A DNA stretch of 64,000 nucleotides, from assembly GCF_011398925.1 (NCBI RefSeq), contig NZ_AP022842.1:1290001-1354000 (forward strand), read 5' to 3'. The number at the start of each line of letters is the position of its first letter. Position 1 is the first letter of the stretch. Source of the DNA: Bacillus sp. KH172YL63 (GTDB lineage: Bacteria; Bacillota; Bacilli; Bacillales; Bacillaceae_B). A program made the translations under genes and the position numbers. Below, piece by piece: positions 17,753-55,988 of this stretch. Under the pieces are notes generated by a model. The model was given only the letters and a program-made list of their open reading frames with translations, was not told the DNA's origin and searched no databases.

Positions 17753-17821
17753 GAACTTATTTCTTTACGAAGAAACAATTATAAGATAGAATGAATCTAT
17801 ACAATTGAACGTTTTCTACCT

Positions 17822-17952
17822 GTCAAAGGGGAGTAGCTATAGGTTCATTACCTAAACAAAGTCGTCAATTCATGGTCTATGCCATCGGCTTTGTTGGCAT
17901 ATCACTATGCTAAGCAAGACCTTTGCCTTATTTAGGCAAGGGTCTTTTTATT
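17822..17952 (+). promoter_or_regulatory. yybP-ykoY manganese riboswitch with terminator
   Basis: The conserved 5' segment TCAAAGGGGAGTAGC starts at 17823 and the 3' segment TTGGCATATCACTATGC-TAAGCAAGACC ends near 17922. These are the two internal-loop strands that bind Mn2+ in this class. It runs into a terminator (AGACCTTTGCC with GGCAAGGGTCT, then T5, to about 17950). High Mn2+ should favour the antiterminated state and expression of the TerC-family gene. Placement in front of a TerC protein is the classic ykoY arrangement. Confidence 0.93.
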
Positions 17953-50894: not shown

Positions 50895-50901
50895 ATAAAG
50901 G

Positions 50902-51027
50902 TTTAGAAAGAGGAAATGAGGGTATTATATCTTTGAAGAATAAGGCACACCCTTTGGGCCTTTTCATTCTCATTTCCCCCTTTCTAAAGGATTGAAGGAA
51001 CGTCACTTCCTTCAATCCTTTTTTTGT
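50902..51027. terminator. Two overlapping hairpins after ptsI
   Basis: TTTAGAAAG-GGAAATGAG pairs with CTCATTTCC-CTTTCTAAA (50902-50988). AAAGGATTGAAGGAA pairs with TTCCTTCAATCCTTT (50986-51022), followed by T7. The second serves both ptsI and the converging acetyltransferase. The two share bases, so only one can form fully at a time. Confidence 0.8.
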
Positions 51028-51702
51028 TCATTCACTCCAGGGCTTGAATGGATTGCGCCATTCCATCAGCACGCCGTAATCACATGATTCTTCATCTTTC
51101 AAATACCCTTTGATTGCCTTTAAAGGCGTTCGCCCGGTTTGCAGTAAAAAGGTAATGACTGGATCTTTATATGATCCTTTGGTCAACTCCTTCACATAGT
51201 CCTCTATTTCATACAAATGGGCGACCTTGTGGTAACTTGGGATGCGGCCGCCGCCAAGCAGCCTGTCAAGATCCAGATGTACGACGATTTCAAACATGGC
51301 GTCCATCAGTACTTTCCCGAGCTTGTACCCCCTGTAGGATGGATCGATGCAAAGGTCCACCACATACAAGGTGTTTCCATCCTCGGCATGGTTACTGATG
51401 AAGCCGCTGTCGGTCATTTCTTCCCATGTGTGTACAGGGTGATCGGGATTGAAGGAGACGATGAGCCCGGTCATGCTGCCGACAATCTTTCCGTCGATTT
51501 CCACGCACAGAGAGCCGAGTGGGAAATGTTTTATATGAGAGGTGAGCTGATCTTTACCCCACCATAAGTCAGCAGGAAAAGGAGGGGGAAATGCCCTCTT
51601 CTGGATGTTGATCAGCGCATCGAAATCAGCTTCTCTATAATTTCTGATTACTGCTTTATGTATCTGATTCTTTCTGAAAACATACTGTTCTTTCATATAC
51701 AT
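51028..51702 (-). CDS. ykwB: GNAT family N-acetyltransferase (YkwB-like)
   Basis: 224 residues. The GNAT core includes IRNYREADFDALINIQKRAF, an acetyl-CoA binding segment LYVVDLCIDPSYRGYKLGKVLMDAM (R-x-x-G-x-G/K type reading RGYKLGK) and a long variable C-terminus. The substrate is unknown. Location after ptsI matches ykwB of B. subtilis; splAB is absent. The ATG at 51702 has only a weak upstream GCGGGG; an in-frame ATG two codons later is an alternative start. Confidence 0.82.
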   Translation of the reverse strand: MYMKEQYVFRKNQIHKAVIRNYREADFDALINIQKRAFPPPFPADLWWGKDQLTSHIKHFPLGSLCVEIDGKIVGSMTGLIVSFNPDHPVHTWEEMTDSGFISNHAEDGNTLYVVDLCIDPSYRGYKLGKVLMDAMFEIVVHLDLDRLLGGGRIPSYHKVAHLYEIEDYVKELTKGSYKDPVITFLLQTGRTPLKAIKGYLKDEESCDYGVLMEWRNPFKPWSE

Positions 51703-51960
51703 GATCAGAACCCCGCTTCTCAGAATTTACTTGTTTATTATACTTTATGAAAGCGCTTTTTTAAAGAGTTTTACTGAAATAACTTTTTATCTGTAGATTA
51801 GGTGCTTTTCGCATTGGTTGATGTTATTAATAGAGGTTAATGTGAGCATCTTCTGTAAATTGAGATTGTGGAGTGAAAATTACCATAGCAATGAATCACT
51901 ACTATTCTGAAGATGAACCAGCAATTTATTGAGTGGATTTTTGGTTTTTTATCTTCGATG

Positions 51961-52136
51961 GTTGATTGGAGCGGAAGATGCTCGACTCCTGCGGGAACTG
52001 ATGGACAGGTGAGACCCCGCAGGACGAAGTCCGAGGAGGCTCACCGCCAGCCCCGCGGAAAGCGAGCATCTGTAGCGGAAATCAACCGCATCTCGCTTGT
52101 CTATAAGCCACAATGTTTACGAAACAGTCTTAGGTT
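51961..52136. repeat. Bacillaceae intergenic repeat with extensive internal pairing
   Basis: A roughly 176-base GC-rich element in AT-rich surroundings. Arms pair inwards: GTTGATT with AAATCAAC, AGATGCTCG (51977-51985) with CGAGCATCT (52063-52071), TGCGGG with CCCGC, and GGTGAG with CTCACC. The tail TATAAGCCACAATGTTTACG recurs at 35.6 kb. It resembles a repeat I know from many Bacillus genomes that is often mis-called as a short Arg-rich protein. It encodes no transposase. Confidence 0.8.
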
Positions 52137-52259
52137 ATTTACATAATGTAATGAGGAAATCCCGATAAAAAAGGATGAAGGTGAAGGAAGAAAAAATTCC
52201 TGAAGAAAAAATTTAAAAGAGTGGTTTAGCATTTTTAAATACGGGTATCATATAACTAA

Positions 52260-52346
52260 GCATGAAATTGGAGATTAATTTCTCACTAACACCCCCTTTT
52301 CCTTTTTTTGAACCGGCACAGTTTACTGTGTTGGTTCTTTTTTTTG
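52260..52346 (+). ncRNA. Candidate C-rich small regulatory RNA
   Basis: About 85 bases with three parts: a 5' hairpin GAAATT/AATTTC, a single-stranded stretch with CTAACACCCCCTTTTCC, and a strong terminator GAACCGGCACAG/CTGTGTTGGTTC followed by T8 or more. No ORF precedes the terminator. A -10-like TATCAT/TATAAC lies at 52246-52256. C-rich unpaired loops that target Shine-Dalgarno sequences typify Firmicute sRNAs such as FsrA and RsaE/RoxS. Identity with a known sRNA is not claimed. Confidence 0.5.
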
Positions 52347-52439
52347 CTTAATGGGGGACCGGTGAATAGGACAGGTTGGGGTGAAACATAATAATCCCAT
52401 CACCATTGTGGTGAATGAACATTACGGAGGGTGAAAGAA

Positions 52440-52616
52440 ATGGCAAAGCGAACGAAAAAACATGATCCTCAGCAGAAAAATAAAAAAGGTTTCGATTCAT
52501 CGAAAATCAATGCGGAATTTGCCCATGAAATGGGAAGTGCTGCGGCCAATAAAGTCCACAAAGACAAAGCAAAAAAAGAAAAAGCATCTAAAAATAATGG
52601 TGAATACAAAGGGTGA
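52440..52616 (+). CDS. 58-residue Lys-rich protein, minor-SASP-like
   Basis: ATG 52440 follows GGAGGGTGAAAG. The product begins MAKRTKKHDPQQKNKKGF and contains INAEFAHEMGSAAANK, then a Lys-rich end. The EF-x-x-E element is reminiscent of the GPR-cleaved EFASE sequence of gamma-type spore proteins, and composition is that of DNA- or spore-associated minor proteins. A TCCGAAC-family terminator ends the unit 30 bases after the stop. Function is inferred only from composition and motif. Confidence 0.65.
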   Translation: MAKRTKKHDPQQKNKKGFDSSKINAEFAHEMGSAAANKVHKDKAKKEKASKNNGEYKG

Positions 52617-55708: not shown

Positions 55709-55911
55709 CCGGTATCCTCCATGTTTTGGCTTATTCAATCATTATGCTTAGAAGCAGGGGATATTGCAACTCTGTTCATCCAATACGCCGCTACGCCCAC
55801 ATCATGAGATGGCATTTTGATGAAATCGATCCCAGAGGTAGATTTTTTTCGGAAAAAACGTTATATTGGTTGAAGACAATTTAAGAAGAATTGGAGTCTT
55901 AAGATAAACTC

Positions 55912-55988
55912 CGAGAGGTTCTAGCACAACCCTCTATAAAAAACTAAGGAAAACGGCATCCTTAGGTGTCGTTATTTTCTGTTAAGGC
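55912..55988 (+). promoter_or_regulatory. preQ1-I riboswitch controlling queCDE
   Basis: The aptamer GAGAGGTTCTAGCACAACCC-TCTATAAAAAACTAAGG at 55914-55950 fits the preQ1 class I consensus, including the C-containing loop and the A-rich H-type pseudoknot tail. The tail CTAAGGA can instead pair with TCCTTAG just downstream, while AACGGCA pairs with TGTCGTT followed by ATTTT. These are mutually exclusive antiterminator and terminator stems. preQ1 binding should stop transcription of queuosine synthesis genes. Confidence 0.93.

Follow-up and report, generated by a model that had tools for sequence, protein, structure and literature searches.

A conserved, free-standing C-rich small RNA gene of Rossellomorea with a sigma-B-type promoter, and a candidate partner gene behind ptsI

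The segment 52246-52346 of the window (the whole stretch of 64,000 nucleotides analyzed here) has a divergent GNAT acetyltransferase gene (51028-51702, minus strand) on one side and a 58-codon gene for a Lys-rich protein (52440-52613) on the other, with ptsI upstream and the aminotransferase A gene (patA) downstream. The initial annotation placed a candidate C-rich trans-acting sRNA here, and the locus raises the question of whether the segment is an RNA gene in its own right and, if so, which form of RNA polymerase reads it and how its product may act.

Folding of the 101-nt segment yielded -22.8 kcal/mol (z -4.17), which was equalled by none of 200 shuffles. Within it we placed an RNA of ~89 nt, referred to as sRNA I, at 52257-52345 on the plus strand, the 5' end being derived from the promoter spacing. 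This RNA scored 112.3 bits with R1, a covariance model of the RNA alone trained on 22 loci of the genus Rossellomorea, and 116.9 bits with R2, a promoter-plus-RNA model trained on 23 loci including 8 from outside the genus. The plus-strand gene consists of a near-invariant 45-nt 5' core (52258-52302; AAGCAT...UUGGAGAUU...CUCAC...CCCCCUUUUCC), in which the CCCCC seed occupies 52292-52296, and an intrinsic terminator (52310-52345) formed by a 12-bp stem at 52310-52337 and then T8. The seed, described from the outset as an unpaired C stretch, was indeed predicted to be open with an unpaired probability of 0.97; across 45 loci, the predicted value for the C-run averaged 0.91 with a minimum of 0.28. 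A terminator scan of the 1.1-kb region found one site compared with a mean of 1.0 in shuffles, so a terminator-like site alone is not unusual.

That no plausible gene precedes this terminator was also borne out; an ATG frame of 29 codons does start at 52263. A small protein translated from this ATG is hardly credible: the 29 codons are open in the window and the ATG is kept in 9 of the 21 distinct relatives without the exact core, but it is absent in the other 12 and lies only ~6 nt from the deduced 5' end, which leaves no room for a Shine-Dalgarno sequence. Furthermore, the Bacillus badius group keeps the ATG, but in a frame relative to UUGGAGA that differs from that of Rossellomorea, and the frame runs into the variable terminator.

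Conservation relative to the flanks had been set beforehand as the comparison that could refute an sRNA; the RNA and its promoter were found to be kept across the genus and into other genera, whereas the flanks were not. A 261-base DNA query matched 22 of 41 genomes, namely the source genome, 21 of 24 congeners and none of 16 genomes outside the genus, and most matches stopped where the T-run ends. The alignment of the 22 loci revealed a nearly unchanged GGTTTA...GGGTAT...AAGCATGAAATTGGAGATTAATTTCTCACTAACACCCCCTTTTCC followed by a variable terminator, in which 4 of 6 consensus pairs showed changes on both sides that retained pairing among the 22 sequences, each pair being broken or gapped in 2 to 4 of them. 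An identical 39-nt core was present in 28 of 36 genus genomes, and pairwise identity in the flanks was ~0.30, as compared with a core value of 1.0 that holds by construction, the loci of this table having been chosen for the exact core. The covariance search of relatives suggested in the initial annotation detected sRNA I in 34 of the 36 genus genomes with R1, and R2 added one more (G002), giving 35; some of the matches in the genus and the order are loci on which the two models were trained. The G002 copy was strongly diverged, without GGAG, the C5 run or UUGGAGA, and G018 gave no match with either model.

The 5' hairpin noted initially was present but weak: in Rossellomorea it is a 4-bp GAGA/UCUC helix that competes with pairing of GGAGA to pyrimidines 3' of the C-run, and no such helix was apparent in other genera. 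A CsrA-type GGA hairpin loop, with a mostly 3-bp AAU/AUU-like stem around UGGAG, was considered and dropped because UGGAG was predicted to be mostly paired, with a mean unpaired probability of 0.25 over the 45 loci. The invariance of UUGGAGA in all 23 aligned loci would fit an RNA that acts mainly as a sponge or binds a protein through the UUGGAGAUU segment rather than repressing mRNAs with its C-run. We regard this as improbable, given that UGGAG is mostly paired, that the C-run is conserved too and is the open part, and that the diverged G002 copy has lost UUGGAGA. Returning to the C-rich sRNA, the overall shape, the accessibility of the C-run and the terminator agree with the identity proposed at the start. 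Judged at the sequence level, the region 52257-52345 is a real, conserved, free-standing sRNA gene of Rossellomorea, with the features of an intrinsically terminated Firmicute trans sRNA: its own promoter, its own terminator, no conserved open reading frame and unconserved flanks.

Upstream of the gene, the initial annotation had pointed to a -10-like sequence. Promoter boxes are present there, but their type had been overlooked: GTTTAG (52224-52229) and GGGTAT (52243-52248), separated by a 13-nt spacer, form a sigma-B-type promoter at 52224-52248 on the plus strand, and we take these boxes to be the sigma-B consensus. The window contains 14 matches to the loose GTTT..GGGWA pattern where 7.3 are expected, which means that the boxes alone prove little and that their fixed position is what counts. 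In particular, of the 50 distinct loci that contain AAGCAT..TTGGAGA, 48 show GTTT-N15/16-GGGWA upstream of AAGCAT at a distance of exactly 10 nt; some of the loci had been found with the promoter-containing R2, whereas those from R1 and the pattern scan had not. The two remaining loci were L140, which has GGGGA, and L026, which had been retrieved in the RsaE search and seems to match by chance.

A TATAAT-like box ahead of the start was also observed in 36 of the 50 loci, as would be expected if sigma-A or another factor read the gene and the product were no stress RNA. This alternative appears unlikely: GTTT/GGGWA is the more constant element, TATAAT was lost in several loci, including L058, L060 and L061 of one Rossellomorea subgroup where the sigma-B boxes were kept, and a sigma-70-type scan found no site at the sRNA I promoter. 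The sigB gene exceeded its cut-off in 343 of 397 order genomes, the source genome included; the 54 genomes below it were read from E-values, and their number agrees with the tally. Among genomes with an R2 match, 69 of 70 had sigB over the cut-off, compared with 274 of 327 without a match (Fisher p 3.6e-4, which is indicative only, as the genomes are related and kinship was uncorrected). The one exception, G106 (L065/L130), has a type I sRNA locus with sigma-B-type boxes, yet no sigB over the curated cut-off. We conclude that sRNA I is very likely under sigma-B control.

Between the T-run and the start of the Lys-rich gene there are 94 bases, and a similar distance was found in many genus loci, an arrangement that would suit a cis-acting leader or attenuator of this gene with the same promoter and a conditional terminator. 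We consider such a leader very unlikely. The Lys-rich gene has a motif of its own, TTGAATA...GATGAATAATA or close variants, located 3' of the terminator in most genus rows, which resembles a sigma-G promoter; an antiterminator was not evident; and the gene lies about 1 kb away at some loci (~1.2 kb in L015/L056) and was not found beside several sRNA I loci of other genera. The link to the Lys-rich protein made in the initial annotation was accordingly not supported. The protein of 58 amino acids, encoded within 52346-52613, is 84-93% identical across most of the genus and matched nothing in Pfam or NCBIfam; it is probably a forespore protein, to judge by the motif, that is encoded next to sRNA I by chance.

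An exact pattern scan of named genomes revealed 42 stretches, 36 from Bacillaceae and six from unrelated taxa, the former including Rossellomorea, Bacillus badius, B. thermotolerans, B. ectoiniformans, B. wudalianchiensis and Heyndrickxia sporothermodurans. PatA and/or PtsI were encoded beside 35 of the 36 Bacillaceae matches and none of the six others. The exception was a B. badius stretch that ends ~380 bases downstream of the match; in the relatives of B. badius, PatA was present and PtsI was not within reach. On the GNAT side, the acetyltransferase gene has a minus-strand promoter, TTTAAA-17-TATAAT (51737-51765), which overlaps TGAAAGCGCTTTTTT, a sequence that resembles a CcpA cre site. 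Between this promoter and sRNA I there is a GC-rich element of ~120 bases (51961-52080), which looks inserted because in the relatives L003, L004, L011 and L014 the sRNA borders directly on the GNAT upstream region.

A second RNA gene was found in the same locus, 1.3 kb upstream of sRNA I. R2 matched 50898-51025 with 42.4 bits and an E-value of 8.7e-7, which is rough because R2 and the later model R3 treat promoter G's as paired with the C-run, an impossible pairing. The match begins 3 bases past the stop codon of ptsI (50894), and the promoter, on the plus strand at 50901-50925, follows this codon after a 6-base gap, with GTTTAG at 50901-50906 and GGGTAT at 50920-50925. The RNA itself, sRNA II, was placed at 50933-51025 on the plus strand with a deduced 5' end; after the two promoter boxes, the order is a hairpin, CATTCTCATTTCCCCC and a terminator (50989-51018 plus T7), the invariant part being AUUCUCAUUU-CCCC. 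R1, which lacks the promoter, assigned sRNA II only 13.6 bits, which indicates a distinct RNA of the same architecture and not a close copy of sRNA I.

DNA matches to sRNA II were obtained in 32 of the 36 genus genomes, four of them over 22-24 bases only. The motif ATTCTCATTT(T)CCCC was kept in all 30 genus loci read, and the promoters of these loci had GTTT..GGGWA in 27 cases, GATT..GGGWA in two and GTTT..GGGGA in one. R3, the model of sRNA II, had matches in 56 of the 397 genomes of the order, which represent 14 genera, and PtsI was encoded beside 27 of the 29 loci fetched (L313-L341). Outside the genus, the arrangement of the window recurs in the genomes G072, G111, G142, G383 and G401, where RNA II and then RNA I lie on the same strand of a single contig. 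sRNA II appears to be a second, independently transcribed sigma-B-type C-rich sRNA of the same locus, and an unexpected partner gene.

We infer transcription, sigma-B dependence, base pairing and targets for sRNA I from these features, and we consider it quite probable, taken as a whole, that a free-standing, sigma-B-transcribed sRNA I represses mRNAs through pairing of its C-run with Shine-Dalgarno sequences, with sRNA II in the same locus. RNA polymerase carrying the general stress factor sigma-B would transcribe the gene from GTTTAG-N13-GGGTAT and stop at the terminator, and the RNA would accumulate under stress or slow growth. Its single-stranded CCCCCUUUU may then pair with the G-rich Shine-Dalgarno sequences of several mRNAs, which would block ribosomes and expose these mRNAs to decay.

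The target search with the C-run against ribosome binding sites, also proposed at the start, provided leads in the source genome but no gene common to many species of the genus. The strict 11-mer complement pattern AAAAGGGGGTG-N1-8-ATG occurred in 18 of 36 genus genomes, with the same gene hit only between close species. The shorter pattern AAAGGGGG-N3-10-ATG had 80 matches in the source genome compared with 24 for the reversed pattern, and in 53 of the matches the ATG opens a frame of 60 codons or more. Twelve of these 53 candidates were chosen by eye for domain scans; NCBIfam was used for 10 and Pfam for 3, with one candidate run against both. The NCBIfam cut-off was exceeded by SdhB, PurD, Opp3B, cytochrome c551, an amino acid carrier, a serine hydroxymethyltransferase (fragment) and a fructose PTS IIA domain, and the Pfam cut-off by a BPD_transp_1 permease and a DinB_2 protein; a response regulator, an oxidase subunit III and a glutamate-semialdehyde dehydrogenase fragment reached no NCBIfam cut-off. 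Because the AAAGGGGG count stands without an enrichment control, the genes with this ribosome binding site are possible targets and serve as leads only, not as evidence of regulation.

In the order at large, R1 had matches in 20 of 299 genomes, including 8 that do not belong to Rossellomorea, and R2 had matches in 70 of 397 genomes spread over 24 of 135 genera, not all with the sRNA I core. Outside the genus there were 54 R2 genomes; in the loci read, 12 of them had the AAGCAT..UUGGAGA core and 15 more had other cores with the same architecture. Among 299 genomes drawn from the phylum, R2 gave three matches, all within the order, and none in the ~295 genomes outside it, a count taken from the sorted listing. 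Additionally, L148, L149, L153, L154 and L156, outside the genus, contain sigma-B-type C-rich sRNA candidates with the different core GCTTTCTAGTATTCCCCC or close variants, which adjoin an aminotransferase 41-46% identical to PatA. Other R2 cores were AACATAATTTTCCCCCTTTT in L144 and L145 and GATCCATACCCCTA in L150, L158 and L310, with the same promoter and terminator architecture; the four neighbor proteins of the window were not found beside L144, L145, L150 and L158.

A broader reading, which we put forward tentatively and with somewhat more doubt than confidence, is that both RNAs belong to a Bacillales-wide group of sigma-B-driven C-rich sRNAs, in several lineages arranged in tandem behind ptsI, and that the group may form a post-transcriptional stress arm lowering sugar and peptide uptake and respiration at once. 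The cores of such a group would differ, and its members would share a constant GTTT/GGGWA promoter, a short variable head, often a UUCUCA-like stretch, C4-7 U3-4 and a terminator.

The relation of sRNA I to known RNAs was assessed with Rfam and the literature. At the gathering threshold, Rfam gave no family at sRNA I; elsewhere in the window, a manganese (yybP-ykoY) riboswitch (17816-17911) and a PreQ1 riboswitch (55909-55953) were over the gathering score. Rfam includes an RsaA model, and none of the 14 Rfam matches that the sRNA I stretch gave at E-values up to 10 was to RsaA. FsrA was likewise not among these matches, insofar as Rfam includes a model of it. The closest relevant family was RsaE/RoxS (RF01820), a C-rich sRNA of Bacilli like sRNA I; a paralogue of RsaE was rejected at 22.1 bits against a gathering score of 79, and the true RsaE was found at G000:C1:1246377 and in 16 of 16 genus genomes of that search. 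LhrC of Listeria (RF00616), which resembles sRNA I as a C-rich sRNA and has several copies, was also set aside, with 19.5 bits against 110. Literature searches returned no title or abstract start describing sRNA I, which does not establish its absence from print. The sequence comparisons suggest that sRNA I is a new sRNA family of a known kind, the C-rich sRNAs.

LhrC is induced by cell envelope stress with LisRK (PMC4132741). FsrA of Bacillus subtilis, which is C-rich, acts in trans, measures 84 nt and is under Fur/iron control, reduces sdhCAB, citB and others (PMC8464778); it is of the same C-rich trans type as sRNA I but differs in control. RoxS is controlled by ResD and Rex (PMC8464778), and RsaE/RoxS covers Shine-Dalgarno regions with CCCCUUU repeats, one C-rich region of RoxS being decisive for binding (PMC4409812). 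A 2021 review of B. subtilis lists five trans-encoded sRNAs whose targets have been identified and which respond to CcpN/CcpA, Fur, ResD/Rex, CcpA or growth phase, and it describes the sigma-B-controlled S1326, S1290 and SR7 as antisense RNAs (PMC8464778).

The sigma-B-dependent, C-rich RsaA of Staphylococcus aureus masks the Shine-Dalgarno sequence of mgrA with an unpaired C-rich motif (PMC3961350). RsaA and sRNA I share a common design, an open C-run before the terminator behind a sigma-B promoter; sRNA I has the sigma-B-type promoter in the 48 of 50 loci described above and, by prediction, the unpaired C-run. Because RsaA and RoxS use their C-rich regions in this way, we infer the same action on Shine-Dalgarno sequences here, and by analogy the best mechanism for sRNA I would be that of RsaA, namely sigma-B-induced repression by Shine-Dalgarno pairing. 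The sRNA pair is a ready comparative system, as its promoter, seed and gene neighborhood are kept over many species. If this reading is true, a pair of sigma-B-type C-rich trans sRNAs would give the stress regulon of Bacillaceae a repressing arm, as RsaA does in Staphylococcus.
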